Source of the DNA: Amycolatopsis sp. NBC_01480
Lineage (GTDB): Bacteria > Actinomycetota > Actinomycetes > Mycobacteriales > Pseudonocardiaceae
DNA length: 64,000 nucleotides
Assembly (NCBI RefSeq): GCF_036227205.1
Contig: NZ_CP109442.1
Coordinates: 5,642,001-5,706,000, forward strand
Direction of reading: 5' to 3'
The position numbers and the translations under genes were made by a program. Below the pieces are notes generated by a model, which ran no database searches, was not told where the DNA came from, and saw only the letters and a program-made list of their open reading frames with translations. Each line of letters starts with the position of its first letter. Positions within the stretch are counted from its first letter, which is position 1. Positions 5,610-24,920 of this stretch are shown piece after piece.

Positions 5610-6344
5610 TCAAGAAGATCTCCGACCGGGCACCGCCGCCAGCAGCCGGCGCGTGTAGTCGTGAACGGGACGCTCGAGCACCTCGGAGACCGGCCCCTGC
5701 TCGATCACGCGGCCTTGGAGCATGACCGCGACGTGGCTCGCGACATACCGGACGACCGCGAGGTTGTGGGAGATGAAGAGCAGCGACAGCCCGAGTTCGC
5801 GCTGGGTCTGACGGACGAGGTTGAGCACCGCGCCCTGCACCGAGACGTCGAGCGCCGAGGTGATCTCGTCGGCGATGAGGACCTCGGGCAGGCCGGCCAG
5901 GGCCCGCGCCAGCGCGACCCGCTGACGCTGCCCGCCCGACAGCTCGCTGGGCAGGCTGTCCGCGCAGGCGGGGTCGAGGTGCACGAGCTCGAGCAGCCGG
6001 GTGACCTCGGCCGCGCGAGCCGCCCGGGTCAGCCGGTGCGGGATCGCCTCGGTGACGCTGTGCCCGATCGTCATGCGCGGGTCGAGCGACGAGTACGGAT
6101 CCTGGAAGACCAGCTGCAGCGGACGGCGGCGGCCGCGGCGCGGGAGCTCGGCGCCGTCGAGCAGGATCCGGCCGCCGCTCAGCGGGACCAGCCCGACGGC
6201 CGCCCTGGCCAGCGTGGACTTTCCCGAGCCGGATTCTCCCACCAGCCCGACGACCTGGCCGTCGGGCACGGTGAGGCTCACCCGGTCCAGGACTTTTGCG
6301 GTGCCGTAGCGCACCGAAACCTCGTCGAACACCAGCTCGCTCAT
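5610..6344 (-). CDS. dppF: Peptide ABC transporter ATP-binding protein (DppF/OppF type)
   Basis: A 244-residue nucleotide-binding domain. Walker A GESGSGKST is near residue 35, the Q-loop QDPYSSLDPR is typical of the OppF branch, the signature is LSGGQRQRVALARAL, Walker B is LIADEITSALD and the switch His is in ISHNL. It powers uptake of peptide-like solutes together with the fused permease-ATPase. It is shorter than many DppF proteins and lacks the usual C-terminal cysteine-bearing oligopeptide tail. Its ATG overlaps the TGA of the gene upstream by four bases, so it is last in a five-domain, four-gene operon running from 10862. Confidence 0.92.
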   Translation of the reverse strand: MSELVFDEVSVRYGTAKVLDRVSLTVPDGQVVGLVGESGSGKSTLARAAVGLVPLSGGRILLDGAELPRRGRRRPLQLVFQDPYSSLDPRMTIGHSVTEAIPHRLTRAARAAEVTRLLELVHLDPACADSLPSELSGGQRQRVALARALAGLPEVLIADEITSALDVSVQGAVLNLVRQTQRELGLSLLFISHNLAVVRYVASHVAVMLQGRVIEQGPVSEVLERPVHDYTRRLLAAVPGRRSS

Positions 6345-8263
6345 CGGGTGACCGCCTCGTCGATCGTGACCGCGGGATCGAGCGAACACGTCTCGTTGGC
6401 ACGCCAGCAGGCGACCCGGTGGCCGGCCGCGTCCGTGACCAGCTCGGGTTCGGCCGTCCGGCACCGGTCGTCGGCCAGCGGGCAGCGCGCGGCGTAGGCA
6501 CAGCCGGCGGGGACCTCGGCCGGCCCGACCGGGCGACCGGGGATGCTGGCCAGCGGCGCGTCGACGTCGGTGGCCATGTCCGGCACCGCCGCGACCAGCG
6601 CGCGGGAGTACGGGTGCCGCGCCCCGGTCCACAGCTCGGCGGCGGGCAGCTCCTCCACGACCCGGCCGGCGTACATCACCAGCACCCGGTCGCAGACCTG
6701 CGCGAGGACTGACACGTCGTGGCTGATCATCAGCAGCGCGGCGTCGTCCCGGGCGCGGATCTCGGCGAGCAGGTCGAGAACCTGCTGCTGCACTGTGACG
6801 TCGAGGGCGGTGGTCGGCTCGTCGGCGATGATCAGCCGTGGTGAGCCCATCAGGCCCATGCCGATCATCGCGCGCTGGCGCATGCCGCCGGAGAACTCGA
6901 ACGGGTACTGGCGCGCGCGCCGCTCGGGTTCGCCCACCTTGACCGCGCGGAGCCGGTCGACCGCCCGGGCGAGCGCGGCTTTGCGGCTGAGCCCCTGGTG
7001 CCGGCGGGCGCCCTCGGCGAGCTGGGGACCCACCCGGTGCCCCGGGTTGAACGACGTCATCGGGTCCTGGAAGACGATGGCGAGGCCTTGGCCCAGCAGC
7101 CGTCCGCGGTGTCGGGGATCGGAGCCGTCCAGCAGGTTCTGCCCGGCGAAGCGCAGCCGGTCGGCCTGCACCCGGCCCGGCTCTTCGACGAGCTGGGCGA
7201 TGGCGAGCGCGGTGAGCGACTTGCCCGAACCCGACTCTCCCACGACGCCCAGCGCCTGACCGCGGCCCACGCGGAAGCTCACGCCGCGCACCGGCCGGAT
7301 CGGCCCGGTGGCGCCCGGGAACGACACGTGCAGGTTGTGCACGTCGAGGACGGTGTCGAGCCGGGGATCGGCGTCCGCCGCGGCCGGTTCGGCGGGTGTG
7401 CCGGGGCCGGCCGCCGCCGTCGCGGGCGGGAAGCCGAGGATCCGGGTGATGCCGAAGCTCCGGGCGAACGCTTCGCCCGTGAGGTTGAACGCCAGCCCGG
7501 CGAGGATGACCGCGACGCCCGGGGCGAGCGCGGCCGACGGCTGGGTGTAGATGCCGGACAGGCCGTCCTGCATCAGCCGGCCCCAGTCGTAGGCCGGGGA
7601 CTGGACGCCGAGGCCGAGGAACGACAGTCCCGCGAAGGCGAGCAGCGTGCTCCCGGCGCCGATGGTGACGTTGACGATCAGCGGCTCCGCGATGTTGGGC
7701 AGCACGTGGCGCACCAGGATCCGCCACCGGCGCACCCCGGAGATCCGGGCCGCCGCAACGAAGTCGAGGCTCTCCACGCCGGCCACGAGCGTCTGGCACA
7801 AGCGGCCGAAGACGGGCGCGCCGGCGAGGCCGACCGCGAGCACCGCACCCGTCGTCCCGACGCCGAAGACGACCGCGAAGAAGAGCACGAGCAGCAGCGC
7901 GGGGAACGCGACCAGGATGTTGACCACCGCCCCGATCAGCCGCCCGGCCCGGCGTCCCAGCAGGATCGGCGCCGCGCCGAGAAGCAGGCCGGCGACGAGG
8001 GAGACGGCCGTGGCGCAGACGGCGAGCAGGATCGAGAGCCGGGTCGCGACGAGAACGCGGAAGAAGTTGTCGCGCCCCAGGGCATCGGTGCCGAGGAGGT
8101 GCTCCGCCGACGGGCCCGCGAGGATGTTCGAGGTGTCGGCGGCGTCCGCGCGGTCCTGCCACAGGATCGGCGCGAAGACGGTCAGCAGCACCACGATCGC
8201 CAGCAACGTGAGGCCGACGACTCCCACGGGGGTGCGCAGCACGCGGCTCGGACGGCGCACCAT
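6341..8263 (-). CDS. Fused peptide ABC transporter permease and ATPase (DppC-DppD)
   Basis: A 640-residue fusion. Residues 1-275 are a DppC-type permease: a first membrane segment near 15-35, the periplasmic LLGTDALGRDNFFRV motif, and the EAA loop AAARISGVRRWRILVRHVLPN. An Ala/Pro-rich linker near 285-305 leads into a DppD-type ATPase with Walker A GESGSGKSL, QDPMTSFNP, signature FSGGMRQRAMIGMGL, Walker B IADEPTTALD and ISHDV. The C-terminus has the oligopeptide tail CAYAARCPLADDRC, which binds a [4Fe-4S] cluster in DppD homologues. Such fusions are known in actinobacteria. The start codon shares one base with the upstream stop (TGATG). Confidence 0.92.
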   Translation of the reverse strand: MVRRPSRVLRTPVGVVGLTLLAIVVLLTVFAPILWQDRADAADTSNILAGPSAEHLLGTDALGRDNFFRVLVATRLSILLAVCATAVSLVAGLLLGAAPILLGRRAGRLIGAVVNILVAFPALLLVLFFAVVFGVGTTGAVLAVGLAGAPVFGRLCQTLVAGVESLDFVAAARISGVRRWRILVRHVLPNIAEPLIVNVTIGAGSTLLAFAGLSFLGLGVQSPAYDWGRLMQDGLSGIYTQPSAALAPGVAVILAGLAFNLTGEAFARSFGITRILGFPPATAAAGPGTPAEPAAADADPRLDTVLDVHNLHVSFPGATGPIRPVRGVSFRVGRGQALGVVGESGSGKSLTALAIAQLVEEPGRVQADRLRFAGQNLLDGSDPRHRGRLLGQGLAIVFQDPMTSFNPGHRVGPQLAEGARRHQGLSRKAALARAVDRLRAVKVGEPERRARQYPFEFSGGMRQRAMIGMGLMGSPRLIIADEPTTALDVTVQQQVLDLLAEIRARDDAALLMISHDVSVLAQVCDRVLVMYAGRVVEELPAAELWTGARHPYSRALVAAVPDMATDVDAPLASIPGRPVGPAEVPAGCAYAARCPLADDRCRTAEPELVTDAAGHRVACWRANETCSLDPAVTIDEAVTR

Positions 8264-9267
8264 CACGACTCTCCGATCGTCGAACGGGGATCGAGGACCG
8301 CGATCGCGACGTCGGCGAAGGTGTTGACCAGCAGCACCCCGACCCCGTACACGAGCACGATTCCCTGCACGACTGCGTAGTCCTTCGAGACGATCGAGGC
8401 GACGATCGTGCGGCCGAGGCCCGGCCAGGCGAAGACGTTCTCGACGAGCACGGTCCCGGCGATGAGGGAGCTGAGCAGCAGCCCGCCGAGGGTCAGCGTC
8501 GCGGTCACGGCGTTGGGCAGTGCGTGCACCAAGGTGATCCTCGACGTGGGCAGCCTCTTGGCCCGGGCCGTCCGGATGTAGTCGGTTTCGAGGACGGCGA
8601 GCAGCTCGACGCGCACGATCCGGGCCAGCACCGCCGCGGGGCCGAGGGCCAGCGCGACGACCGGAAGGATGTAGGACGACCAGGTGTCGTTCCCGGCCAC
8701 CGGAACCCAGCCGAGGGTCACCGAGAAGACGAACACGAGACCGACCCCGAGGAGGAAGTCCGGGATCGTCCCGAGCACCACGCTGGTACCGGCGAAGACG
8801 AGCTCCGTGCGCCGGCCGCGGCCCCGCCGGGTCCGCATCGCGACCGCGACGCCGACCGGGACCGCGATGACTGCGGCGAGCAGGAACGCCAGCCCGGCCA
8901 GCACGGCCGTGGCCGGGAGCAACTGCCCGATGATCTGACCGACCGGGAGTTGCGAGACGATCGACGAGCCGAGGTCGCCGCTGAGAACCCCCTTGAGGAA
9001 GTGCAGGTACTGGACCGGCAGCGGGTCGTCGAGGCCGAGCGCCGCCCGCCTGGCGGCGACGACGGCGGGCGTCGCGGTGGGCCCGAGCGCGGCCCGGACG
9101 GGGTCGCCCGGCACGAGGTGGATCATCAGGAAGGTGGCGCTCACCAGTACCCACAGGGAGACCAGCAACCGGCCGGCCCGCCGCAGGGCGAACCGGGTCC
9201 ACCGTCCGTTGAGGATGGCCAGCCGGGGTTCGGTCGCCGTCGCCGTCGCGCTCAGGGTTTCCGGCAT
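8263..9267 (-). CDS. dppB: Peptide ABC transporter permease (DppB type)
   Basis: A 334-residue integral membrane protein with about six hydrophobic segments. It has the features of DppB/OppB permeases: a first segment at 35-52 followed by HLVPGDPVRAAL, the long periplasmic loop, a QYLHFLKGVLSGDLG stretch, and the EAA motif DYIRTARAKRLPTSRITLVHALPNA that docks on the ATPase. The N-terminus has about 30 extra polar residues. It lies 5 bp after the solute-binding protein gene and overlaps the next gene by one base, so the subunits are translated as a set. Confidence 0.92.
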   Translation of the reverse strand: MPETLSATATATEPRLAILNGRWTRFALRRAGRLLVSLWVLVSATFLMIHLVPGDPVRAALGPTATPAVVAARRAALGLDDPLPVQYLHFLKGVLSGDLGSSIVSQLPVGQIIGQLLPATAVLAGLAFLLAAVIAVPVGVAVAMRTRRGRGRRTELVFAGTSVVLGTIPDFLLGVGLVFVFSVTLGWVPVAGNDTWSSYILPVVALALGPAAVLARIVRVELLAVLETDYIRTARAKRLPTSRITLVHALPNAVTATLTLGGLLLSSLIAGTVLVENVFAWPGLGRTIVASIVSKDYAVVQGIVLVYGVGVLLVNTFADVAIAVLDPRSTIGES

Positions 9268-9272
9268 TCCGA

Positions 9273-10862
9273 TCAGCCCAGCATGTGGATGCTGGACGGG
9301 ACGATGCTGCCCGTGGACACGAACTCGGCGTCCTTGCCGAAGGTCGTGAGGACCTGGTTCGCGAACGGCACCAGGTCCGCGGCCTTGAAGAGGGCGGCTT
9401 CGCCCTTGAGCCAGTCGGGGCAGCCGTCCGTGCCCGTCTGCCCCATCGCCTTGGTCACGGCGGTGGTGTAGCCGGCGTTCTCGACGGCGGAGAAGTTGCT
9501 GCCGTCCGGGACCGTGGCGCCCGAGAGCGTCGGGACCATCTGGTCGGGGGTCGTCACGTTGATCGGCTCCCAGGCGATGTCCCAGTCGCCGGTGCTGAAC
9601 AGCGGGCCGGCCATCTCGGTCGTGGCCAGCTGCTTGACGGTGACCTTGATCCCCAGCGCTTTCCATTGGGAGACCGCGAGCTCCGACGCCGCCGCGCCGC
9701 CGGTGCCCAGCGCGGAGTCGGAGATGAAGGCGAGCGAGAGCTCGGCGCCGTTCTTGGCGCGGACCCCGTCGGGGCCCTTCGTCCAGCCGGCGGCGTCCAG
9801 CGCCGCGGAGGCGGCGGCCGAGTCGAACGGCGGCACGCTGCCGGCCACCGAGTTGCCGGTGCAGCCCGCGGAGGAGATCGTGGCGAGCTGAGTCGCCGCG
9901 GTGCCCTTTCCTGCCGTGAGCACCTTCGCCAGCTGCGTGTAGTCGGCGCCCTGCGTCAGCGCCTGCCGCACCGCGGGATCGCCGGTCGCGTGCCCGGGGG
10001 CGTGGTTGTACCACTGCTCGCCGACCAGTGTCGTGGTGTCGGCCGACTTGAGCCCGGCGGCCTGCAGCCGGGCGGCGTCGGGCCCGACGATCTGAGCCGC
10101 GTTGAGCTGTCCGGCGAGCAGCTGGTTGGCCGCGGTGGTCTCGTTGGCGACGATCTTCACCACGATCTTGGCGGGCGTACCCTTCGCGGCCGTCGACGCC
10201 CCGTCCGGCCCCCAGGTGTAGCCCGGGCGGACCTGGTAGACGTACTCCGCCCCCGGGGTGGCCTGCGTGAGCTCGTAGGGACCGGTCCCCGCGGTGTGGT
10301 CCTTGAGCCCGGCGCGGTCCTTCAGGCCCGACGCGCACACCATCGGCAGGAACGAAAACGAGCTCAGGACGAATGGCGCCGGGGCCGCGAGCTTGAGCGT
10401 GACCGTCGAGCCGGTAGCCGTCGCCGTGGCGCCGGCCGGCACGAAGACGCCCAGGAACGGGCTCTTGTTCTTGGGGTCCTCGACGTAGGAGATGTTGTCG
10501 GCGGCCGTCTTGGCGTCGAAGACCGAGCCGTCGGAGCAGGTGATGCCCGGCTTGATGTCGAAGGTGACCGTCATGGCGTCGACGGTCTTCCAGGCGGCCG
10601 CGAGCTGGGGCCGGACTTCGCCTTTCGCGTCGACGGCGACGAGCGCGTCGTAGGCGAACTGGTTGAGCTGCAGGAGCGAGCTGACGGCGGAACCCTGCGG
10701 GTCGAGCGCACCGGGGTCCGAGGACAGCGCCAGGGTGAACGTCTTACCGTCGACGTAGGTCTTGGGGCCGCCCGATGATCCGCCGCTGCCGCAGGCGACC
10801 AGACCCCCACCGGCCAGCAGGAGACAGAGCGCGAGCTGGGCACCCTTGTATGTCGGACTCAT
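9273..10862 (-). CDS. dppA: Peptide ABC transporter solute-binding lipoprotein (SBP family 5)
   Basis: A 529-residue family-5 extracellular solute-binding protein. A lipoprotein signal peptide ends in LVAC with the lipidated Cys at residue 24, then a Gly/Ser linker. The mature part starts with FTLALSSDPGALDPQ, the usual family-5 opening, and contains the conserved NDSP-like region PAPFVLSSFSFLPMV and EQWYNHAPGHATGDPAVRQALTQG. Family members bind di- and oligopeptides, nickel or other amides. It is first in the operon and its promoter should lie in the 155-bp gap shared with the deacylase gene, which links the cargo to N-acyl-amino acids or peptides. Confidence 0.9.
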   Translation of the reverse strand: MSPTYKGAQLALCLLLAGGGLVACGSGGSSGGPKTYVDGKTFTLALSSDPGALDPQGSAVSSLLQLNQFAYDALVAVDAKGEVRPQLAAAWKTVDAMTVTFDIKPGITCSDGSVFDAKTAADNISYVEDPKNKSPFLGVFVPAGATATATGSTVTLKLAAPAPFVLSSFSFLPMVCASGLKDRAGLKDHTAGTGPYELTQATPGAEYVYQVRPGYTWGPDGASTAAKGTPAKIVVKIVANETTAANQLLAGQLNAAQIVGPDAARLQAAGLKSADTTTLVGEQWYNHAPGHATGDPAVRQALTQGADYTQLAKVLTAGKGTAATQLATISSAGCTGNSVAGSVPPFDSAAASAALDAAGWTKGPDGVRAKNGAELSLAFISDSALGTGGAAASELAVSQWKALGIKVTVKQLATTEMAGPLFSTGDWDIAWEPINVTTPDQMVPTLSGATVPDGSNFSAVENAGYTTAVTKAMGQTGTDGCPDWLKGEAALFKAADLVPFANQVLTTFGKDAEFVSTGSIVPSSIHMLG

Positions 10863-11017
10863 CTCGTACCTCGTTCGTACCGCTGCTCGATGGATGGGCC
10901 GTCAACCTTGCGGCCACATTAAAGCCGGGCAGCGCGCCGGTGTCTGTGCGACTCCACCAGGCACCCCCGCCCCATTGGTGGAATGCGCCAAGTTCGGGCC
11001 CGGCCGGCGGCACGACA

Positions 11018-12505
11018 ATGACCGGCATGGAGACGACGATTCTGCGCGGTGGCCGCGTCATCGACCCGGCGGCCGGCACGGAGGTGGTGGCCGACGTCGT
11101 GGTGCGCGACGGACGGGTGGCGGCCGTGTCCCCCGTCCCGGTTCTCGAACCCGAAGCGACGGTCGTGGACGTGACCGGCCTCGTCGTCGGGCCCGGGTTC
11201 GTCGACCTGCACAGCCACGTCCATTCGGTGGCGGGGCAACGCTTGCAGGCCTTCGACGGCGTGACGACGAACCTCGACCTCGAGGCCGGTCTCATGCCGG
11301 TCGAGCGTGCCTACGCCGAAGCCGCGGCCGCCGGGCGCGTGCTCAACTACGGCTACTCCGCCTCCTGGGCCGAAGCTCGCGGCCAGGTGCTGGCCGGCGT
11401 CGAGCCCACGAGCCGGTTCGACGGCTCGCTCGAACTGCTCGGCAATCCTGCTTGGCAACGCGACTCGTCGGCCACCGAGCTCGCGGCGTGGCTGGCGCTG
11501 CTGGAGGGCGAGCTCGCGGCCGGCGCGCTCGGCATCGGCGTGCTCCTGGGGTACGCGCCGCGCTCGGACCCGGGGGAGTACCTGGCCGTGGCCCGGCTCG
11601 CGGCCGCCGCCGGCGTGCCCACCTACACCCACGTGCGCGACCTCGTCGAGGTCGACCCGACCACCCCGATCGACGGTTCCCGGGAGGTCACGATCGCGGC
11701 GGCGGAGACCGGCGCCGCGATGCACCACTGCCACGTCAACAGCACCTCGCGCCGCCACGTGGACCGGGTCCTCGCGACCCTCGACGACGCGCGGGCCGCC
11801 GGAGCGCCGGTCACCGTGGAGGCCTACCCGTACGGCACGGGCAGCACCGGGGTCGGGGCGTTCTTCCTCGCCCCGGACCGCCTGCGCGCCGCCGGGCTGG
11901 CACCGTCGAACATCGTGCTGCTCGGCACCGGCGAGCGGATCGCCGACGAGCGCCGGCTCGAGGAGGTCCGCGCCCTCGATCCGGCCGCGACCTGCCTCGT
12001 GGAGTTCCTCGACGAGCGCGCCGAGGCCGATCGTGAACTGCTGCGCCGCGCCCTAGCCTTCCCCGACACCATCGTCGCCAGCGACGCGATGCCGATCGAG
12101 TGGCCGGACCGACGCGCCGACACGCGGGAGTGGCCGTTGCCCGCCGGTGCCACCACCCATCCGCGCACCGCGGGCACGTTCGCGCGCAGTCTGCGGCTGA
12201 TGGTGCGCGAGCACGCGTTGTGGGACTGGCCCGAGGCCTTCCGGCGGTGTTCCCACCTGCCCGCCCGCGTCCTCGACGGTGTCGCGCCGGCCATGCGGGC
12301 CAAGGGTTTCCTCGCGCCCGGCGCCGACGCCGACCTCGTGGTGCTCGACCCGGCGGCGATCACGGACCACGCGACCGCCGCCGACCCGGTCCGCCCGTCC
12401 GGCGGGGTGCGCCACCTCCTGGTGGGCGGCACGTTCGTCATCAAGGACGGGCAGCTCGATGTGACCGCCTACCCGGGCCGAGCGGTCCGCGCCGAACCGC
12501 GCTGA
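11018..12505 (+). CDS. N-acyl-D-amino-acid deacylase (amidohydrolase family)
   Basis: A 495-residue metal-dependent amidohydrolase of the D-aminoacylase group. After a small beta-sandwich (ILRGGRVIDPAAG) comes the first metal pair in VDLHSHVHSVAGQR, then GVTTNLDLEAG where D-aminoacylases carry a metal-bridging residue. Further motifs are the metal His in YTHVRD, HHCHVNSTS, and the catalytic Asp in ASDAMPIEWPD. The C-terminus rebuilds the sandwich with GADADLVVLDP. Family enzymes hydrolyse N-acyl-D-amino acids to D-amino acid and acid; the stereochemistry here is inferred. ATG 11018 or ATG 11027 could be the start. The gene is divergent from the peptide transporter operon, which suggests that its substrate is what the transporter imports. 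Confidence 0.8.
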   Translation: MTGMETTILRGGRVIDPAAGTEVVADVVVRDGRVAAVSPVPVLEPEATVVDVTGLVVGPGFVDLHSHVHSVAGQRLQAFDGVTTNLDLEAGLMPVERAYAEAAAAGRVLNYGYSASWAEARGQVLAGVEPTSRFDGSLELLGNPAWQRDSSATELAAWLALLEGELAAGALGIGVLLGYAPRSDPGEYLAVARLAAAAGVPTYTHVRDLVEVDPTTPIDGSREVTIAAAETGAAMHHCHVNSTSRRHVDRVLATLDDARAAGAPVTVEAYPYGTGSTGVGAFFLAPDRLRAAGLAPSNIVLLGTGERIADERRLEEVRALDPAATCLVEFLDERAEADRELLRRALAFPDTIVASDAMPIEWPDRRADTREWPLPAGATTHPRTAGTFARSLRLMVREHALWDWPEAFRRCSHLPARVLDGVAPAMRAKGFLAPGADADLVVLDPAAITDHATAADPVRPSGGVRHLLVGGTFVIKDGQLDVTAYPGRAVRAEPR

Positions 12506-12508
12506 CGG

Positions 12509-15500: not shown

Positions 15501-15985
15501 AGCAGCAGCTCCGACGCGCCGGGGACGGTGGACGACTTCGCGGTCGGGTCGTCACCGACCAGCGCGACGGCGCCCCCGGCGTGGTGGGTGCCGCACAGGT
15601 TGGCGTGGCGCAGGGCGTCGGCCGCGCGGTCCAGGCCGGGTGACTTGCCGTACCAGAAGCCCGTGACGCCTTCGACGCGCTTGTCCGGCATCGTCGAGGC
15701 GAGCTGGGTGCCCTGCACCGCGGTCGCCGCGAGCTCCTCGTTGACGGCCGGGCGGAAGACGATGTCGAGCTGCTCGAGGAGCGCGGCGTGCTTGGCGAGC
15801 TCGAGGTCGTAGCCGCCCAGAGGTGAACCCTCGTAGCCTGAGACGTAGAGCGCGGAGTCGTGGCCGGCCGCCGCGTCGGCGCGCCGGACGTCCAGGGCGA
15901 GGCGCACCAGGGCCTGGATGCCGGTCAGGTGGACGACCCCTTCGCCGGCCAGGTACCGGTGGTCGAGCGAGGCCGGCGTGGTCAT
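12509..15985 (-). CDS. Indolepyruvate ferredoxin oxidoreductase-type 2-oxoacid oxidoreductase, fused subunits
   Basis: A 1158-residue protein combining the alpha, iron-sulfur and gamma parts of a 2-oxoacid:ferredoxin oxidoreductase. The N-terminal pyrimidine domain is followed by the thiamine-diphosphate motif NLGDGTFHHSG near residue 498 with NSAVAMTGGQ. Cysteines in CEGCGDCGVQSNC near 635 and CNKDFSCLKGDC near 670 can hold iron-sulfur clusters. A gamma domain starts at ILGIGGSGVVTVSQ near 720. The reaction is oxidative decarboxylation of an aryl- or branched 2-oxoacid to acyl-CoA with reduction of ferredoxin. It is third in an operon behind two serine hydrolases (4-base overlap), so it probably uses 2-oxoacids made from the released amino acids. 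No ferredoxin gene is adjacent. Confidence 0.9.
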   Translation of the reverse strand: MTTPASLDHRYLAGEGVVHLTGIQALVRLALDVRRADAAAGHDSALYVSGYEGSPLGGYDLELAKHAALLEQLDIVFRPAVNEELAATAVQGTQLASTMPDKRVEGVTGFWYGKSPGLDRAADALRHANLCGTHHAGGAVALVGDDPTAKSSTVPGASELLLADLGMPTLYPGSPQEVLDLGLHAVAMSRASGLWTALKIVTNIADGSGTVRVDPDRLTRAMPSREVDGKPFTHTVTAKLAGPTLIELERGRNGPRLELALRYARLNGLNTITGATSGARLGIIASGKSYADVRQALTLLGLGEADLAGAGIRLLKLGLIHPLDPEIVTEFVSGLDEVVVVEEKRPFLETAVKDLLFGRSGVPLVTGKTTPDGSKLFATHGELGPDEVAAALAARIQAHGHVPTVADWLERGRPRARRALLPLAVRTPYFCSGCPHNSSVRTPPGSLVGAGIGCHALALVMTPDLVGDVIGLTQMGGEGAQWLGMAPFLERKHLLQNLGDGTFHHSGSLAVRAAVAGGVDITYKLLYNSAVAMTGGQQAAGQMTVAEIARALTAEGVKKIIITTDDLKSYRRRGLPRGVEVWHRDRIVAAQERLAAIGGVTLLIHDQECATELRRKRKRGLAAEPVERVVINERVCEGCGDCGVQSNCLSVQPVDTEFGRKTRIDQSSCNKDFSCLKGDCPSFLTVTAGKKRPARGAVAALGTSLPEPPAAPAGWDHHTTRILGIGGSGVVTVSQILGVAAALAGLRVRSLDQTGLAQKGGAVVSDLKISRADDGGANKAAAGEVDLYLGADLLVAADPAHLAAADPGRTVAVVSTAKVATGGMVADTRVGFPDVTTLTGLIGEHTDPAKNLFADARAISNALFGRDQFANLILVGVAYQTGVLPIPATAIEQAIELNGAQVDANVQAFRRGRQLVSDPDAFHTAVGTGAPAAAPVAPEVQALVDSVGARPGSVLAELVAVRVADLVAYQDIRYAKAYADFVAEVHRAEADRGAVSEAVARQLYKLMAYKDEYEVARLSIGNDVRDALAAEYGPDAKVAYRLHPPVLRALGMRGKISLGPWFKPVFRLLVAMRRLRGTPFDLFGYAEVRKVERALVVEYRDAVREALTALRPENADVVVKLAGLPDLVRGYEAIKLGNVAKYRRELAAVRAELLPAES

Positions 15986-17343
15986 GCCGCCGGCCGGCCG
16001 GTGCGCGGGGCCGCCTGCCCACCGAGGTGCAGGTACCGAGTCCCGTCGTCGAGGTCGTAGAAGATGACGGACAGCCACTCCGAGCGACCCGGGATCTGCA
16101 GGACGTAGGTGTCCGGGGCGATCGGGACCAGCGCGGCCTCGATCCGGTCGGTGCCGAGCGAGGCCGCGAGCACGCCGCTGGGGCGCGCGACCAGCGCCAG
16201 CCCGTCGCCGTGGTCGGCCACTTCGTAGCTCATCAGGACGCGCTCGTAAGTGCCGGTGACGTCCGCGGGGCCGGCCGCCACCGGGGCGGCGGGCGGCTCC
16301 GGCCGGGCCGGCATGGTGACGCCCGCGTGCTCGGCGGCCAGCTCCGCGACCAGGTCCCGGTAGAGCTCGGCCGAGTCGGCGGAGTTGACCAGCAGCGCGA
16401 TCGACACGGGTACCGGGCCGGGGATGACCTGCAGGTACGCGGTCTGGCCCAGGGTCTGCCCGTCGTGGCCGAAGACCGGCCGGCCCCAGTCGCCGAGCAT
16501 CCAGCCGAGCCCGACGTGCGTCCCCTCCGCGTCCGTCCCGGGGATGGCCACCTGGGGTGCGCGCATCGACCGGGCCGCCTCGGCCGACAGCAGCCGCTTT
16601 CCCGCGGCCGTGACGCCGTCGGCCAGGTGCAGCTGGGCGAAGGTGAGCAGGTCCACGGCGCGGGCGTGGATCAGCCCCTGGGGGCCGGCCGCGCGCGGCA
16701 GGCCCCACTGCGCCGTGACCTCGGTTCCGATGTGGCCGACGGCCGCGCCCCACAGCAGCGCCTCCTCGGGAAGGGTGCCGGCGGCGTCGAGCCCGAGCGG
16801 CGTGAGCAGGCGTTCGCGCAGTACCGCGTCCCACGTCTGCTTCCGCAGCACCTCGACGAGCCGGCCGAGCAGCGCGAACCCGGAATTGCAGTAGCTCATC
16901 GTCGCGCCGAGCGGGTGCGTGGTGGCGAGCTGGGCCATCTCGCCGACGTAGCGGGCGAGGCAGTCGTCGCCGCGGCCGGTGTCGGCGAAGAAGTCGCCCC
17001 CGATGCCGCTGGTGTGGGTCAGCAGGTGCCGGGCGGTCACCCCGGCGGTGATCCGCTCGTCGAGGACCCGGAAGCCGGGCAGGTAGGTGCCGATCGGGAC
17101 GTCGAGGTCGAGCAGCCCGTCGTCGACGAGCTGCATGACCAGCGTCGCGGTCCAGACCTTCGTGATGCTGCCGATCTGGAACACGCTGTCGACGGTGGCG
17201 GGGGCGCCGGTGCGGGTGTTCAGCACCCCGGTCGCGGCGAGCACCGTTTCGTCGCCGACGGCGAGGGCGACGCTCGCGCCGGGGACCTGGTGCTTCCCGG
17301 CGAGTTCGGTGAGCCGGGTTTCGAGGGTGGCGGGGTCCATCAT
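15982..17343 (-). CDS. Beta-lactamase-family (S12) serine hydrolase 2
   Basis: A 453-residue penicillin-binding-type serine hydrolase. The nucleophile motif is S59-I-T-K62 in FQIGSITKVW, the second element is Y-C-N in MSYCNSG, and the third is H-D-G in FGHDGQT. There is no signal peptide, so it should act in the cytosol. A C-terminal lipocalin-like domain of about 100 residues follows. Family S12 includes D-aminopeptidase, D-amino-acid amidase and D-Ala-D-Ala carboxypeptidase as well as esterases. Its start codon overlaps the stop of the preceding paralogue by four bases, and its stop overlaps the start of the oxidoreductase, which implies a joint catabolic task. Confidence 0.85.
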   Translation of the reverse strand: MMDPATLETRLTELAGKHQVPGASVALAVGDETVLAATGVLNTRTGAPATVDSVFQIGSITKVWTATLVMQLVDDGLLDLDVPIGTYLPGFRVLDERITAGVTARHLLTHTSGIGGDFFADTGRGDDCLARYVGEMAQLATTHPLGATMSYCNSGFALLGRLVEVLRKQTWDAVLRERLLTPLGLDAAGTLPEEALLWGAAVGHIGTEVTAQWGLPRAAGPQGLIHARAVDLLTFAQLHLADGVTAAGKRLLSAEAARSMRAPQVAIPGTDAEGTHVGLGWMLGDWGRPVFGHDGQTLGQTAYLQVIPGPVPVSIALLVNSADSAELYRDLVAELAAEHAGVTMPARPEPPAAPVAAGPADVTGTYERVLMSYEVADHGDGLALVARPSGVLAASLGTDRIEAALVPIAPDTYVLQIPGRSEWLSVIFYDLDDGTRYLHLGGQAAPRTGRPAA

Positions 17344-19028
17344 GCCTCCGGGAGGAAGATGCCGACCTGGTCGACGACGATCCGCTGCACGGCGCCGTCG
17401 GGGTCCAGGTCGGCGGTGACGCCGATGCCGGGCTTGGCAGGGCAGCGGAACGCGGTACCGCCCGCGCTCGTGAGGACGAGGTCGCCGAGGACGTCGGAGA
17501 CGGCGACGAGCTCCGAGCCGCGCGGGCGGATGGTCAGGGTGATCGGACCCATCCGGTAGCGGCCGGCCATCGCGGCGAGCAGCGCGTCCGACGCGGGTTC
17601 GGGTCGCCGGGTGAACACGGCGGGGGCCACCTGGGGCTCGAGTGTCACGCAGAGGCCGGCGACCGCACCGTCGGCGTCCTGGGTGAACACCAGCGGGCAG
17701 TCGATCTCTTCGTCGACGAACACCAGGTCCCAGGAGTCGTGCCCCCGGTGCTCGAGCCGGATCCGGCTCGTGGCGTCGTGGAAGCCCGGCACGAGCTCGC
17801 CGTCGGAGAGCCGGATGGTCAGGTCGCCGTAGGCGGGATGGGTGTAGGTGCCGGCGAAGCCGTCGAGCGCCCGCGACGGCGGTGCCCCGGATGCCCGCGC
17901 CCGGCGCTGCTCGCGGGCATCGGTGTAGCCGGCGTCGAGGGCGGTCTGGAGGTCGTGGAACCGGGCGCCCCAGCTCACAGTGGTGTCGCCGGTCAACCGG
18001 TCGACGATCCCGTAGATCAGCGGCAGGCGCAGGAAGCTGCTGTCGAGGTTGGTGAGCACGGCGACGCCGAGGCCGGCGTCCGGGACGACGCAGACGTCCG
18101 AGGAGAACCCGAGGGTGTTGCCGCCGTGGTGCACGAGCCGCCGGCCGCGGTAGCTCTCGACCTGGCAGCCGAGGCCGTAGCCCAGCGAGGCGATCTCGGC
18201 GAAGCGGTCGATGCTGATGCCGCCGAGCATGGCGGGCCGGTGCAGCTGCTCCAGCGCCGCGGCGGACAGCACGTCGGTCCGCCCGCCGAGCCGGGCCGAC
18301 AGCCACCGGGCGAGATCGGCGATGGTCGACACGATCCCGCCGGCGGGGCCGGCCTTGACCGCCGTGGCCCGCGCCGGCAGCGCCTGCCGGACGAAGCCCG
18401 TGGACGTGGCCTTGTAGGGCTGCGCCGGCTCACCGGCCGGCACGTCCTGCACGGAGAACACGGTTTCGGCCATCCCGAGCGGCGCCAGCAGGCGGGCGCG
18501 GACGGCCGCCGCCCACGGCTGACCCGTCAGCACCTCGATGAGGTGCCCGGCCGCGAGGTAACACAGGTTGTTGTAGTCCCACACCGTGCGCAGCGGCCGG
18601 GACACCGGCAGGTGGCGCAGCCGCCGGGTGGTCTCTTCCAGCGACATCTCGGCGTCGCCGAACCACAGGAAGTCGTGCCGGGGCAGGCCGGTCCGGTGGC
18701 TGAGCAGATCGCGCGGGGTGACCAGCTCCGTCGCGTGCGGATCGTGCATCGCGAACCACGGCAGCACATCGCGGACCGGGGCGTCGAGGTCGACGAGCCC
18801 GGCGTCCGCGAGCAGGCAGAGGGTCGCGGCGGTGAAGGCCTTGGTGTCGGAGGCGAGGGGGAACGGCGTGCCGGCGTCGACCGGCCGCCCGGTCTCCAGG
18901 TCGGCGTGGCCGAACCCGTCGCACACCACCACTTCGCCGTCGGACACGACCGCGACGGCCAGGCCCGGGACGGTGAACCGGGCCTGTTCGGCCGCGATGA
19001 AGGCGCGGATCGCGTCGATGTCGGCCAT
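17340..19028 (-). CDS. Beta-lactamase-family (S12) serine hydrolase 1
   Basis: A 562-residue serine hydrolase of the same family as its downstream neighbour but longer. The nucleophile motif is S60-D-T-K63 in LASDTKAFTAA, the second is Y-N-N in VWDYNNLCYLA, and the third is HHGGNTLGFSS. The C-terminal 190 residues include a DUF3471-type beta domain with the phrase FAGTYTHPAYGDLTI. No signal peptide is present. It is first in the operon with S12 hydrolase 2 and the oxidoreductase and is divergent from the PucR regulator. The start at 19028 is preferred over the in-frame start 24 bases upstream, since it begins right before the first helix. Confidence 0.85.
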   Translation of the reverse strand: MADIDAIRAFIAAEQARFTVPGLAVAVVSDGEVVVCDGFGHADLETGRPVDAGTPFPLASDTKAFTAATLCLLADAGLVDLDAPVRDVLPWFAMHDPHATELVTPRDLLSHRTGLPRHDFLWFGDAEMSLEETTRRLRHLPVSRPLRTVWDYNNLCYLAAGHLIEVLTGQPWAAAVRARLLAPLGMAETVFSVQDVPAGEPAQPYKATSTGFVRQALPARATAVKAGPAGGIVSTIADLARWLSARLGGRTDVLSAAALEQLHRPAMLGGISIDRFAEIASLGYGLGCQVESYRGRRLVHHGGNTLGFSSDVCVVPDAGLGVAVLTNLDSSFLRLPLIYGIVDRLTGDTTVSWGARFHDLQTALDAGYTDAREQRRARASGAPPSRALDGFAGTYTHPAYGDLTIRLSDGELVPGFHDATSRIRLEHRGHDSWDLVFVDEEIDCPLVFTQDADGAVAGLCVTLEPQVAPAVFTRRPEPASDALLAAMAGRYRMGPITLTIRPRGSELVAVSDVLGDLVLTSAGGTAFRCPAKPGIGVTADLDPDGAVQRIVVDQVGIFLPEA

Positions 19029-19175
19029 CAGACGGCCCTGCCTGCCGAGCACCTGTTCATGTCCTCACGCTAGGGCGGCTCGGGCACCCGGTGTTGGTGG
19101 TGAGGCGCAAAACCGCCGGTTACGGTTGTTGCCCCGGCACTAGGTTCGGGCCGCTCGACCGGCCATGCTGGAGCG

Positions 19176-20750
19176 GTGCCCGCTATCCACGACCTGCTGA
19201 ACCGGCTCGGCCACGAGCTCGCCACCTTGGCCGTCGCCCCGGCCGACGTCACCGGCGACTTCACCGACGTGGTCGTCTACGACCCGCTGGACGCTCCGGC
19301 TTTCGAAGCGGGGGCGCTGGTGCTCGCGGTGGGCGTGAGCGCGGAGTCCGCACTGGCGCTGCGGCTGGCCGCCGCGCGGCCGGCTGCGCTCGTGGTGCGG
19401 CACGACGGACCGGTGGGGCAGCCGCTGCTGGCCGAGGCCCTCGACGCCGGGGTCGCTCTCCTCGTCGTGCCGGCCGGCTGCCCGTGGTCGAGCGTGTTCG
19501 CGATCGCCTCGTCCCTGCCGGGGCAGCTGCCCCCGGTCCACGCCGACTCCGGGTCCGAGGTGATCAGCGACCTGTTCGCGGTCGCCAACGCGCTCGCCGG
19601 CACGCTCGACGCCCCCATCACCATCGAGGACAACCAGTCACGCCTGCTGGCCTACTCCGCGCTGCAGGGGGAAGTGGACGTGGCCCGCGCCGCCACGATC
19701 CTCGGGCACCGCGTCCCCACCTCGTTCCGCCACCAGGTGCGGCGGCTCGGCGTCACCAAGAGATTGTTGCGGGAGACGGAACCCTTCTTCCTGAAGTCCT
19801 CCGAACCGGACATCCACTCGCGCACCGTGGTGACGTTGCGCGAGCACGGCGAGGTGCTCGGCTCGATCTGGGCGGTCACCGACACGCCGCTCGACGCCGC
19901 GCGCACCGCGGCGCTGGCGGAAGCCGCCCGGAGCATCGCCGTCCGGCTGGCCCACCACCGGCTCATCACCGACCTGCGGCGCCGGCACGACCTGGCGTCG
20001 ATGACGCTGCTGCTGCGTGGCGGGGCGGGTGCGGCCGGGGCCGGCCGCCGGCTGGGGCTGGCCGGGGCCGCGTACCGGCTGGCCGCCATCGCCGCCACCC
20101 GGGCGGCGAACGGGAACGAAGCCCTGCTCGACCGCTGCGCGACGGCCCTCAAGCAACACCTTTCCGTGACGTGCGAAGCAAGCGCGATCGCGCGGATCGA
20201 CGACGTCGTGTACGCCGTGATCCCCGGCTCCGCCGATCCCGGCGAGAGCTTGGCGGCGGTGCGCAAGGTCGTGCTCGCTGCCCGCGCCGCGGCCCGCCTC
20301 GACTCGCCCGAGCAGGTCGTCATCGGGGTGAGCGGACCGGTGGCCGGCCTCGACGATCTCGACGAAGCTCGCGAGGAGGCCGATCGGGTCCTGCAGGTGC
20401 TCGCCGGCGCGCGCAGCCATGACGGGTGCGCCGAGGTCGGCGAGGTCGGCCTCGCGGTGAGCATGCTCCGCCTCGCGGAGCTGGAATCGGCCCGCCGGGC
20501 CGGGCGGCGCAGCGTGCTGGACGACATCGACGACTACGACTCGGCCCATGGAACGAGCTACGGCCCGACCATGCGGGTCTACCTGGGCTCGTTCGGCGAT
20601 CCGGCCGTGGTGTCCAAGTCCCTCGGGGTGCACACGAACACCTTGCGCTACCGCGTGCGCCGGCTGCACGAGCTCTTCGCCGTCGACCTGGACGACGCGG
20701 ATACCCGGTTCGAGCTCATGGTGGACATCCGCCTCAGGGCGCCGGCTTGA
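19176..20750 (+). CDS. PucR-family transcriptional regulator
   Basis: A 524-residue regulator. The N-terminal half has a PucR-like purine-catabolism sensor domain (VLAVGVSAES, VVRHDGPVGQPLLAEAL) and a GAF-like middle. The C-terminus has the PucR helix-turn-helix, VVSKSLGVHTNTLRYRVRRLHEL, which is the hallmark of the family. PucR proteins switch on catabolic genes in answer to nitrogenous substrates. It begins at GTG 148 bp from the divergent S12 hydrolase operon, which is its most likely target. Its 3' end overlaps the convergent RidA gene by 17 bp. Control of the transporter operon as well is possible but not shown. Confidence 0.85.
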   Translation: MPAIHDLLNRLGHELATLAVAPADVTGDFTDVVVYDPLDAPAFEAGALVLAVGVSAESALALRLAAARPAALVVRHDGPVGQPLLAEALDAGVALLVVPAGCPWSSVFAIASSLPGQLPPVHADSGSEVISDLFAVANALAGTLDAPITIEDNQSRLLAYSALQGEVDVARAATILGHRVPTSFRHQVRRLGVTKRLLRETEPFFLKSSEPDIHSRTVVTLREHGEVLGSIWAVTDTPLDAARTAALAEAARSIAVRLAHHRLITDLRRRHDLASMTLLLRGGAGAAGAGRRLGLAGAAYRLAAIAATRAANGNEALLDRCATALKQHLSVTCEASAIARIDDVVYAVIPGSADPGESLAAVRKVVLAARAAARLDSPEQVVIGVSGPVAGLDDLDEAREEADRVLQVLAGARSHDGCAEVGEVGLAVSMLRLAELESARRAGRRSVLDDIDDYDSAHGTSYGPTMRVYLGSFGDPAVVSKSLGVHTNTLRYRVRRLHELFAVDLDDADTRFELMVDIRLRAPA

Positions 20751-21084
20751 CCGGGGCGTGGGCGATCACCTCGATTTCGACCAGCGCACCACCGATCAGG
20801 GTCACTTCGACGACGGAGCGCGCCGGGTACGGGTCGGCGAAGAGCTCGGCGTAGACCTCGTTCATGGCCGGCCAGTCCGCCATCGAGGTCAGGAACACCG
20901 TGGCCTTCACGACATCGCTCAAGTGTGCGTCGTGGGAGGCGAGAACCTTGGAAACGTTGGAAATCGCCTGACGGGTTTCCTCGGCGACTCCGCCCGGAAC
21001 GAGGCCTGTGTCGCCGAGGCCGAGCTGGCCCGAGACGAACAGGAGGTCGCCGGCGCGAAAGGACGGTGACAGCGGGATGGTCAC
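20734..21084 (-). CDS. RidA-family enamine/imine deaminase
   Basis: A 116-residue RidA/YjgF protein. The core phrases FVSGQLGLGD, VKATVFLTSMADWPAMNEVYAELF and PARSVVEV match the family, with the Arg of PARSVVEV in the substrate-binding position of active RidA enzymes. It hydrolyses 2-imino acids to 2-oxoacids and ammonia and so protects PLP enzymes. The gene follows the FAD amino-acid oxidase by 31 bp on the same strand. The oxidase makes just such imines, so the two act in sequence. Confidence 0.92.
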   Translation of the reverse strand: MTIPLSPSFRAGDLLFVSGQLGLGDTGLVPGGVAEETRQAISNVSKVLASHDAHLSDVVKATVFLTSMADWPAMNEVYAELFADPYPARSVVEVTLIGGALVEIEVIAHAPVKPAP

Positions 21085-21115
21085 GAGAACTCCTCGGTCG
21101 GGAAATGCGGACTGG

Positions 21116-22231
21116 TCAGTGATCGAGCTTGGCCGGCAGCCGGTCCGCGGCGATGGCGGCCGCCAGCGCGCGGTCGGCCAGCGTGCCGGTGCGGAACAGT
21201 TCGGCGCCCGCCTTCGCCAGCGTCGGTGCCATCTGGACGCCGTAACCGCCCTGGCCGACGAAGCTGAACAACGCGGGTTCGCCGGCGTGCCGGCCGACCA
21301 CGGGCGCCCGGTCCGGCGCGAACGTGCGCAGCCCGGCCCAGCTCGTCCGGACGCTGCGCAGCTGCAACGTCGTCACCGCGTTGACCCGTTCGAGCACCAG
21401 CGCCACGTCGAGCGGGTCCGGTTTGACGTCCCCGGGAAGCACTTCGCTCTCGTCGCCCGGCGACATCAGCACCGCGCCGCCCTCCGGCTTGAAGTACCAG
21501 GTCTCCGCGATGTCGGCGACCACCGGCCAGGCGCCGGCGACGGGTCGTGCCGGGCGCGAGATCACCACCGTGCGCCGCCGCGGGGACAAGCCGTGCCCGG
21601 CGTCGCCGCAGAGCCCGGCGACCTCGTCCCCCCAGGCGCCGGCCGCGTTGACGAGCACGTCGCCCTGCCACCGCCGGCCGTCCGCGGTTTCGACGTCCCA
21701 CCCGGAGGCGAGCCGGGTGGTGGCGGCGAGGCGGGCGCCGGTGACGATCTCGCCGCCGCGGTGGCGAAGGGTTGCCGCGTAATAACTGTGGAGCGCGTGC
21801 ACGTCGATGTCGCGGGTGCTGGGGTCGTACCCGCACAGCAGCACGTCGTCGGTTCGCAGCGCGGGGCACAGCGCCGAGGCTTGCTCCGCGGTCAGGGCCG
21901 TCATCGCCGGTTGAGCCGCGATCATGGCCTCCAGCGCGGCGGCGCCCGGCTCGTCCCACGCGGTCAGCAAGCCGCCGCGCGGGGCCAGCAAGGCGGGCAT
22001 GTCCGGGAGCGCCGACAGCCGGGCGAACTCCGCCTCGCTGCGTCGCGTCAGCTCCCGCACGGGAGCCGGACCGTAGCCGGTCATGAACAAGGCGGCCGAC
22101 CGCCCCGTGCTGTGCACGCCGAGCGAGGACTCCGCCTCGAGCAAGATCACGTCGTGGTCGAGGGCGAGTTCACTGCCAAGAGAAACACCCGCGATGCCAC
22201 CACCGACGATGATTACCCGCTCCCGTGTCAT
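21116..22231 (-). CDS. FAD-dependent amino-acid oxidase/dehydrogenase (DAO family)
   Basis: A 371-residue DAO-fold flavoprotein. The N-terminus has VIIVGGGIAGVSLGSELA with the FAD-binding GxGxxG, and the acidic end of strand 2 in LLEAESSLGVHSTGRSAALF, which places the flavin ring. The C-terminus has FSFVGQGGYGVQMAPTLAK, the second FAD signature. Members include D-amino-acid dehydrogenase, glycine and sarcosine oxidases; the HSTGRSAA stretch is like that of D-arginine dehydrogenase. Oxidation of a D-amino acid to an imino acid is favoured by the downstream RidA gene and the nearby N-acyl-D-amino-acid deacylase. The exact substrate is inferred. Confidence 0.85.
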   Translation of the reverse strand: MTRERVIIVGGGIAGVSLGSELALDHDVILLEAESSLGVHSTGRSAALFMTGYGPAPVRELTRRSEAEFARLSALPDMPALLAPRGGLLTAWDEPGAAALEAMIAAQPAMTALTAEQASALCPALRTDDVLLCGYDPSTRDIDVHALHSYYAATLRHRGGEIVTGARLAATTRLASGWDVETADGRRWQGDVLVNAAGAWGDEVAGLCGDAGHGLSPRRRTVVISRPARPVAGAWPVVADIAETWYFKPEGGAVLMSPGDESEVLPGDVKPDPLDVALVLERVNAVTTLQLRSVRTSWAGLRTFAPDRAPVVGRHAGEPALFSFVGQGGYGVQMAPTLAKAGAELFRTGTLADRALAAAIAADRLPAKLDH

Positions 22232-22380: not shown

Positions 22381-23502
22381 TCAGCGGAAGAGGCGGAAGA
22401 ACCCGCGCACCTGCTCGACCAGCGACTCCGGCTGCTCCAGCGCGGCGAAGTGGCCTCCTCGTGGCAGTTCCTCGAACCAGCGCAGGTCGGTGAACCGCAG
22501 TTCGGCCTCCCGCCGCGACGGGCGGGTGATGTCGCGCGGGTAGACCGACAGTCCGGCCGGCGCGGTGACCTTGTCCCGGAAGTTGGCGAAGCTTTCCCAA
22601 TATAGGCGCGCCGACGACGTGGCCGAGGCGGTGAACCAGTAGACCGAGATCTCGTCGAGGATCTGCTGCCGCGACACCGCGTCTTCGTGGTGGCCGTCGT
22701 GGTCGGTCCAGGCCCGGAACTTCTCGGCGATCCAGGCGGCCTGGCCCGCCGGGGAGTCGGTGAGGCCGTAGCCGAGCGTCTGCGGCCGGGTCGCCTGCAG
22801 CGCCGAGTACCCCCGGCCGGTGCGCTGGAACTCCTTCTCCGCCTCGAGGTTCGCCAGTTCCGACGGTGTCGGGTCGTCGAACGTGCCCGCTGCCACGGAT
22901 CCCAGGTTCAGGTGCACGGCCGCGGCCCGCTCGGGCGCCACCTCGCCCAGTGCACCGGACACTGCCGAGCCCCAGTCACCGCCCTGCGCGCCGTAGCGCT
23001 CGTAACCCAGCGAGACCATCAACGTGTCCCAGGCGCGCGCGATGCGCGTGACGCCCCACCCGGTCGTCGACGGCTTGTCGCTCCAGCCGTAGCCGGGCAA
23101 CGAGGGCGCGACCACGTGGAACGCGTCCGCCGGATCGCCGCCGTGCGCGCGTGGATCGGTCAGCGGGCCGAGGATCTCCAGGAATTCGAGCACCGAACCC
23201 GGCCACCCGTGCGTGAGCACCAACGGGAACGCGTCCGGCTCCGGGGAGCGGACGTGCAGGAAGTGGATGCCCAGCCCGTCGATCGTGTCGCGGTACTGCG
23301 GGAAAGCGTTCAGCCGCTGGGCGAATCCGAAGTCGTAGTCCTCGGCCCAGCTGCGGCACAGGTCCTGCGCGTAGGCCAGCGGCAATCCCTGTGACCAGTC
23401 GTCCACCGGCTCGGGCTCGGGCCACCGCGTCCGGCGCAGCCGTTCGCGCAGATCCGCGATCTCGGCTTCGGTGACGCTGACTTCGAACGGCTTGGCGACC
23501 AT
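22381..23502 (-). CDS. Epoxide hydrolase (EHN domain plus alpha/beta hydrolase)
   Basis: A 373-residue epoxide hydrolase of the microsomal-type bacterial family. The N-terminal EHN domain (residues 5-110) precedes the oxyanion motif HGWPGS at 98-103. The nucleophile is D176 in AQGGDWGSA, and the closing His is in LPRGGHFAALEQP near the end. It opens epoxides to diols by a covalent ester intermediate. It follows an MFS transporter by 30 bp in one operon, divergent from a CGNR regulator. A second, clearly related epoxide hydrolase is at 28609-29850. The substrate cannot be read from sequence. Confidence 0.9.
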   Translation of the reverse strand: MVAKPFEVSVTEAEIADLRERLRRTRWPEPEPVDDWSQGLPLAYAQDLCRSWAEDYDFGFAQRLNAFPQYRDTIDGLGIHFLHVRSPEPDAFPLVLTHGWPGSVLEFLEILGPLTDPRAHGGDPADAFHVVAPSLPGYGWSDKPSTTGWGVTRIARAWDTLMVSLGYERYGAQGGDWGSAVSGALGEVAPERAAAVHLNLGSVAAGTFDDPTPSELANLEAEKEFQRTGRGYSALQATRPQTLGYGLTDSPAGQAAWIAEKFRAWTDHDGHHEDAVSRQQILDEISVYWFTASATSSARLYWESFANFRDKVTAPAGLSVYPRDITRPSRREAELRFTDLRWFEELPRGGHFAALEQPESLVEQVRGFFRLFR

Positions 23503-23532
23503 GGCTTCCTTCCTCGGTGAGGTTTTGCCGGA

Positions 23533-24897: not shown

Positions 24898-24920
24898 CAT
24901 CGCCTCCTCTCCCGTATGGT

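Follow-up and report, generated by a model that had tools for sequence, protein, structure and literature searches.

Peptides with D-residues (non-ribosomal peptides, cell-wall fragments and lipopeptides) resist ordinary peptidases, and their use by soil bacteria is poorly known. Here we analyse a locus of eleven genes from Amycolatopsis sp. NBC_01480, an actinobacterium with a genome of 10.1 Mb in two contigs, in which an oligopeptide transporter (Opp) is encoded beside two S12 serine hydrolases (S12a and S12b), an amidohydrolase, a fused indolepyruvate-type ferredoxin oxidoreductase (IOR), a PucR-type regulator, a RidA-type protein and a DauA-like flavin adenine dinucleotide (FAD) D-amino-acid dehydrogenase/oxidase (DAO). 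The window is the whole stretch of 64,000 nucleotides that was analysed (contig NZ_CP109442.1, positions 5,642,001 to 5,706,000 of the forward strand), and window positions count from its first letter.

Genes of the locus

Genes were called by codon-position GC and their proteins scanned with Pfam and NCBIfam profiles (Table 1). Every gene named in a preliminary description of this DNA is present, and the 4-base overlaps by which it coupled S12b, S12a and IOR were confirmed; overlaps of the same length join OppF to OppCD and OppCD to OppB. The peptide ABC operon is divergent from the amidohydrolase gene as described there, with the refinement that OppC and OppD are one protein. The gene caller placed the start of DAO at 22150, and the longer form was adopted because it fits the 375-amino-acid counterpart in Umezawaea.

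Table 1 The eleven genes of the locus, with window positions and the basis of each assignment
Gene product	Position	Strand	Basis
OppF, ABC transporter ATPase	5610-6344	-	ABC_tran and dipeptide/oligopeptide ATPase models
OppCD, OppC permease fused to OppD ATPase, 641 amino acids	6341-8266	-	BPD_transp_1, ABC_tran and oligo_HPY in a single open reading frame
OppB permease	8263-9267	-	BPD_transp_1
OppA, peptide-binding lipoprotein	9273-10862	-	SBP_bac_5, 1e-48; lipobox-like start LVACG
Amidohydrolase, D-aminoacylase-related (NF006560)	11018-12505	+	632 bits versus cut-off 340; divergent from OppA
IOR, fused indolepyruvate-type ferredoxin oxidoreductase (TPP, POR, DUF6537)	12509-15985	-	NF009589, 1440 bits
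S12a serine hydrolase	15982-17343	-	PF00144, 1.4e-55; motifs SITK, YCN, HDG
S12b serine hydrolase with DUF3471 domain	17340-19052	-	PF00144, 1.1e-70; PF11954; motifs SDTK, YNN, HGG
PucR-type regulator	19176-20750	+	HTH_30 and GGDEF_2; divergent from S12b
RidA-type protein	20734-21084	-	PF01042, 5.1e-31
DAO, DauA-like FAD D-amino-acid dehydrogenase/oxidase	21116-22231	-	PF01266

The SxxK, YxN and HxG catalytic motifs of the S12 family are present in all 36 aligned proteins, S12a and S12b included, and by eye neither of the two starts with a signal peptide, in line with the cytosolic location given to them earlier. In a tree S12a groups with the S12 domains found in S9-S12 fusion proteins, in a clade of 33 members with a support of 0.96; its best NCBIfam model is methyl acetate hydrolase AcmB (77 bits, cut-off 550). 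The amidohydrolase matches the D-aminoacylase in the PDB at 2.3e-25 and, aligned to it, keeps the HxH metal motif and the equivalents of His220, His250 and Asp366 (HSH, THVRD, MHHCH and ASDAM), which presumably have the same metal-binding roles. A GNCG motif with the bridging cysteine, Cys96, is kept in 13 of 18 aligned amidohydrolases, the window protein counted among the 18. The indolepyruvate-type label of IOR was borne out: the protein passes the curated cut-off of NF009589 (816 bits) over residues 5-1153. IOR has no PDB relative at E ≤ 0.001, and its presence in the window fits 2-oxo acid oxidation.

The best solved relative of DAO is the D-arginine dehydrogenase DauA (8.5e-61), of which it keeps Tyr53, Arg222, Glu246, Tyr249 and Arg305; the Arg222/Arg305 and Tyr53/Glu246 pairs are identical in the window and Umezawaea proteins. 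According to passages of PMC11193025, Arg222 and Arg305 of DauA bind the substrate carboxylate, Tyr53 and Glu246 form a gate and Glu87 binds the guanidinium group. A PF01042 protein does adjoin DAO, as the preliminary description held, but it does not pass the RidA model TIGR00004 (91.9 bits versus a cut-off of 106.25). It is a probable imine deaminase and contains the stretch PARSVVEV, whose PARSVV part may hold the equivalent of the Arg105 needed for deamination.

The regulator has HTH_30 and GGDEF_2 domains, but no PucR N-terminal domain was found at E ≤ 0.001. Its identity to the Umezawaea counterpart is 70%, and to the regulators at six loci of the racemase type or related to it 33-37%. 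Each of the two divergent gaps contains the heptamer TTGGTGG (window 10975 and 19094), of which the whole window has seven copies on either strand, and in the S12b-PucR gap of Umezawaea TTGGTGG and CCACCAA form a perfect palindrome (L039 9885-9902). It is mostly absent from the promoters of the other loci. A repeat search gave three inverted pairs for the Umezawaea intergenic region and no repeats for the two of the window. Picked out post hoc, the heptamer is a possible PucR operator.

A conserved core in Umezawaea endophytica

An S12b alignment compared with the named genome collection gave 130 relatives, and the best 80 loci were kept and compared with the window proteins by tblastn. Among these 80 there is one near-complete counterpart, in Umezawaea endophytica (L039), with identities of 71% for DAO, 70% for PucR, 73% for S12b, 67% for S12a and 74% for IOR. 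Its Opp proteins are less similar (OppA 43%, OppB and OppCD 55-56%, OppF 63%). The S12 and IOR genes overlap in Umezawaea too, a D-aminoacylase-family amidohydrolase begins 18 bases after DAO, and the Opp set is convergent with IOR. The Umezawaea OppA belongs to the same subfamily as the window OppA on a different branch, and the two amidohydrolases are of different branches (LSHAW/GEAV motifs in Umezawaea). From these relationships the DAO-PucR-S12b-S12a-IOR core looks inherited, with the importer and the deacylase recruited to it separately. Upstream of DAO in L039 (25-5275), a run of genes on the same strand encodes a CoA-transferase, a cyclase, MmgE/PrpD and proteins like hydantoinase and CitE.

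At E ≤ 1e-100 S12b occurs in 2 of 297 genomes of the family, the own genome and G593, taken to be the Umezawaea genome. A profile search at E ≤ 1e-110 gave 3 of 394 genomes of the class: the own genome, G159 (locus L139) and G261 (L140). L140 (G261:C9), from a distant genome, has two S12 genes in tandem with a 4-base overlap, 35-36% identical to S12b and S12a of the window, and there is no Opp gene on its 7-kb contig.

IOR was tried as an anchor for the cluster and rejected: 35 of 150 genomes of the order have it (E ≤ 1e-100), and of the neighbourhoods fetched for 16 of the 42 other matches of that search, none had matches to the window S12, Opp, PucR or DAO proteins and one had a RidA match. 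In 9 of these 16 loci IOR lies near a gene of one family, of which the single member scanned is Lrp/AsnC. The genes around a same-family IOR homologue (64%) form an extended series, overlapping or a short distance apart (L023 1376-15605), with a CoA-transferase, an FAD-linked oxidase, an AMP-binding ligase and hydantoinase B among them.

Neighbours of related Opp loci

An OppA alignment built from the window, L039, L048, L074 and L057 found the subfamily in 33 of the 394 class genomes (52 places, E ≤ 1e-90) and 65 of the 297 family genomes (69 places, E ≤ 1e-150). The OppC-OppD fusion recurs in these relatives and is present in most of the loci, and the window OppF is 62-65% identical to those of L039, L048, L057 and L074. 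Our test set comprised 38 neighbourhoods of class OppA hits, with seven lower-scoring places left out; two S12b hits were fetched besides. Recurring neighbour clusters, each identified from one or a few of its proteins with Pfam and NCBIfam profiles, were S12 proteins, S9 prolyl-oligopeptidase-S12 fusions (~1,100 amino acids), M20 peptidases, D-aminoacylase-type amidohydrolases, class-A-beta-lactamase-like proteins, MR_MLE racemases of the N-succinylamino acid racemase (NSAR) type, M19 dipeptidases and GNAT-like proteins of ~260 amino acids (of four scanned, three gave weak GNAT matches, of which two passed the Pfam cut-off).

These were compared with 40 other SBP_bac_5 loci, picked stepwise down a score-ranked list with close neighbours skipped; the controls come from 7 of 8 genomes searched and the upper part of the list, and the test loci from more genomes. 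Counting a locus as positive at one or more matches at 1e-10, S12 proteins occur at 32 of 38 test loci versus 3 of 40 controls, and six families occur at no control locus: S9 (31/38), M20 (22/38), the D-aminoacylase family (17/38), GNAT-like (16/38), class-A-beta-lactamase-like (14/38) and PucR (11/38). M19 is not significantly higher (4/38 versus 1/40), and the D-serine-dehydratase type is found at none of the 38 or 40. When the models were built from sequences that are not in the test set, the counts are 32/38 versus 2/40 for S12 and 16/38 versus 0/40 for the D-aminoacylase family. The outside models for S12, D-aminoacylase and PucR derive from the window, L039, L048, L057, L074 and L139; the other five derive from L199-L218, whose members were themselves picked by models made from the test set. 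By genus (12 in all), S12 and GNAT-like each occur in 11, S9 in 10, M20 in 9, PucR in 8, MR_MLE and class-A-like in 5 each and M19 in 3. A further sample of 20 of the 69 family places gave S9 in 18, S12 in 16, GNAT-like in 12, M20 in 9, NSAR and class-A-like in 7 each, PucR in 4 and M19 in 2.

Several loci are of a racemase form. The second Opp/S12 locus of the window's own genome (L119, G000:C1:7535001-7555000) has genes for M20 (cut by the fetch edge), a GNAT-like protein, a racemase, PucR, two class-A-beta-lactamase-like proteins, S12 and an S9-S12 fusion. With a match at 4.7e-215, its racemase is almost a twin of the N-acylamino acid racemase from Amycolatopsis; it is NSAR-type, with 295 bits to TIGR01928 (cut-off 201), and two models of L-Ala-D/L-Glu epimerase give 56 and 41 bits. 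At another place in this genome a separate MenC-type match exceeds its cut-off (449 bits, with one TGA flagged within the match), which suggests that the L119 racemase is not needed for menaquinone. Umezawaea, too, has both the oxidative and the racemase form (L205). The L120 operon reads M19-S12-OppABCDF-S12-GNAT-NSAR-PucR with four 4-base overlaps, and its OppA is the sister of the window OppA in the tree (58% identity). At L124 a 50% relative of the window amidohydrolase accompanies Opp, PucR, two S12 genes and genes for M20, a GNAT-like protein and NSAR. At L139 NSAR and M20 adjoin a 50% relative of S12b and a 57% relative of the amidohydrolase, whose gene has a 4-base overlap with that of NSAR. 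The Opp and S12b block of Streptosporangium (L048) and Sphaerimonospora (L074) includes a D-serine-dehydratase-domain protein, whose best NCBIfam model, 3-hydroxy-D-aspartate aldolase, is below cut-off.

Some loci have a setting of their own. At 11 loci of family f34 (L136, L138, L141, L142, L144-L147, L149, L151 and L155) the Opp-S9/S12 set lies beside trigger factor, clpP-type and clpX genes, and 10 of the 11 have a D-aminoacylase-type gene. The OppA-subfamily loci L156, L157 and L158 have no S12 gene and share families, of which the L156 members resemble caprolactamase/hydantoinase and thiohydantoin desulfurase; judging by these resemblances they are perhaps a lactam or hydantoin variant. 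Two control loci, L169 in the own genome (G000:C1:1101401-1121400) and L163, carry another kind of MR_MLE gene together with an S12 gene closest to PBP4B, possibly a separate dipeptide or murein-peptide system.

Proposed function and alternative explanations

The reading we favour, with modest confidence, is that the locus imports and catabolises small or N-acylated D-residue peptides, as an apparently rare, oxidative form of an Opp/S12 system that is widespread among actinobacteria. We infer the substrates and the order of steps as follows. OppA, OppB, OppCD and OppF would take the peptide into the cell, the cytosolic S12a and S12b would cut bonds at D-residues, and the amidohydrolase would strip N-acyl groups off D-amino acids. 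The DauA-like flavoenzyme would turn the freed D-amino acid, probably hydrophobic or aromatic, into an imino acid, RidA would convert this to a 2-oxo acid and ammonia, and the fused IOR would decarboxylate the 2-oxo acid to acyl-CoA, with the PucR-type protein controlling the locus. Other forms of the system carry genes that would N-acylate, racemise (NSAR) and deacylate D-amino acids. Going by the encoded families, D-amino-acid handling appears to be the theme common to the OppA-subfamily loci, the window swapping the racemase route for an oxidative one (DauA-like flavoenzyme, RidA and IOR), so that import and hydrolysis of D-residue peptides with differing disposal modules would explain them best. 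More tentatively, and rating it a little short of even, we propose an unnamed, widespread actinobacterial D-residue-peptide system made up of the OppA subfamily, mostly with an OppC-OppD fusion, cytosolic S12 and S9-S12 hydrolases, often PucR-type regulators, and exchangeable disposal modules. Just as tentatively, the modules may be GNAT-like/NSAR/M20, the D-aminoacylase type, the D-serine-dehydratase-domain enzyme and, in the window, the DauA-like oxidase with RidA and IOR.

The preliminary description had proposed a self-contained pathway of D-peptide import, hydrolysis and oxidation. The Umezawaea core and the enrichment of S12, D-aminoacylase, M20 and GNAT-like genes at related Opp loci favour the pathway, but "self-contained" was overstated. 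A conserved neighbourhood, on which that proposal was staked, exists in Umezawaea. The exact gene set was seen in two genomes, of which the second has no RidA match.

Known systems resemble the locus in part. The NSAR pathway, reportedly set out by Sakai and colleagues in 2006, is said to consist of a D-amino acid N-succinyltransferase, NSAR and an N-succinyl-L-amino acid hydrolase. Like it, L119 in the own genome and L124 have GNAT-like, NSAR and M20 genes beside an Opp set of the same subfamily, and the GNAT-like protein may, at a guess from weak matches, be the succinyltransferase. Unlike it, the window has no GNAT-like, NSAR or M20 gene among the 11 locus genes and nine others scanned between 1.2 and 31 kb, and has a D-amino-acid flavoenzyme, RidA and IOR. 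The pairing of DAO with an adjacent Rid-family gene recalls Pseudomonas aeruginosa DauA and its Rid proteins, but in passages of PMC5619798 Rid2 and Rid3, not RidA/Rid1, were active in vitro on iminoarginine, the DauA product. The amidohydrolase shares its superfamily and most metal-ligand positions with D-aminoacylase and N-acyl-D-glutamate deacylase, S12b can be aligned to the S12 D-aminopeptidase 1EI5 over residues 11-465, and IOR passes the subfamily cut-off of the fused PRK13030 type, although its coupling to S12 hydrolases was seen in none of the 16 other IOR neighbourhoods. No description of this type of locus was found in the literature searched, which left out subscription literature (later NSAR/OSBS work included), so absence from print is not established.

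A number of observations weigh against the favoured reading. The best PDB relative of S12a and S12b alike is IS11, followed for S12a by 6ksu and Ulm16; 1EI5 scores well below IS11 for S12b, whose best NCBIfam model, D-aminopeptidase (NF009622), is not passed (80 bits versus a curated 443), and S12 proteins range from peptidases to esterases. In the window amidohydrolase and two close relatives a Glu (LEAG) stands in place of the bridging Cys96 (NCG), so that the earlier label of N-acyl-D-amino-acid deacylase said too much, and the Umezawaea amidohydrolase is without the first His of HxH. In DAO of both the window and Umezawaea, Glu87 of DauA is replaced by Gly and His48 by Leu; D-Arg is therefore unlikely as the main substrate, and the substitutions argue for hydrophobic rather than basic D-amino acids as probable substrates. 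The oxidative variant rests on two genomes, no RidA match was found by tblastn at L039, and IOR, as noted, keeps other company elsewhere. DAO and IOR occur at none of the 38 OppA-subfamily loci (nor the 40 controls), neither they nor the D-aminoacylase type occur at any of the 20 further family loci, and D-aminoacylase-type genes are found in only 3 of the 12 genera. For MR_MLE in a broad count the enrichment falls short of significance (7/38 versus 2/40, p 0.083); for NSAR at ≥200 bits, with models from outside the test set, it is significant (7/38 versus 0/40, p 0.005). All enrichment p-values are too small, since the test loci lack independence, a single genus contributing 15 of the 38.

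The breadth of the S12 and amidohydrolase families, and IS11 as best solved relative of both S12 proteins, would also suit an ordinary island for L-peptide or ester catabolism in which the DAO-RidA pair and IOR are chance neighbours; DAO and RidA have same-strand genes for an epoxide hydrolase and an MFS protein next to them, and elsewhere IOR lies near the Lrp/AsnC-type family as in general amino-acid catabolism. We consider this rather unlikely, given that DAO, PucR, both S12 proteins and IOR stay together in Umezawaea, S12/IOR overlaps included, and that D-amino-acid-linked families are far commoner at related Opp loci than at control Opp loci. Murein-peptide salvage, for which Bacillus ykf and E. 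coli mpp/opp are known routes, would have the system recover L-Ala-D-Glu-Dap-D-Ala and could explain Opp transport, the relation of S12 proteins to D-alanyl-D-alanine carboxypeptidases and the few M19 dipeptidases (not significantly above controls). It is unlikely: no NlpC/P60 or LD-carboxypeptidase was found among the recurring clusters scanned (clusters 18, 20-23 and 27 and most single genes lay outside the scan), neither these nor an L-Ala-D/L-Glu epimerase is among the 11 locus genes, the L119 racemase is by its scores NSAR-type rather than such an epimerase, and another MR_MLE protein and an S12 protein are encoded at a separate Opp locus of the window's genome (L169). Least probable, and in our judgement very unlikely, is detoxification or self-resistance, with S12 and related enzymes destroying D-residue antibiotics or beta-lactams in the cell and amino-acid salvage as a by-product. 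S12 and class-A-beta-lactamase-like proteins do recur, and S12a matches the Ulm16 peptide cyclase, but the S12 and class-A-like proteins inspected have no signal peptide by eye, importing a toxin would be a poor defence, and DAO, IOR, NSAR and M20 would suit nutrition better.

If import and catabolism of D-residue peptides is the true function, the locus supplies a concrete gene set and predicts D-specific cytosolic S12 peptidases useful in biocatalysis. Passages of PMC8142540 and PMC7431475 describe in-vitro racemase activity of N-acylamino acid racemase and its use with D- and L-acylases, and name no natural role. The biotechnological Amycolatopsis enzyme, so far studied mainly in vitro, would then gain a natural job, and a single importer/hydrolase core would be combined with several disposal routes for the same kind of product.

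DAO may be co-transcribed with the genes for an epoxide hydrolase and an MFS transporter, which lie upstream of it on its own strand with short gaps (window 22381-24900). A second set, MFS-SMP30-epoxide hydrolase, lies at window 26245-29850.

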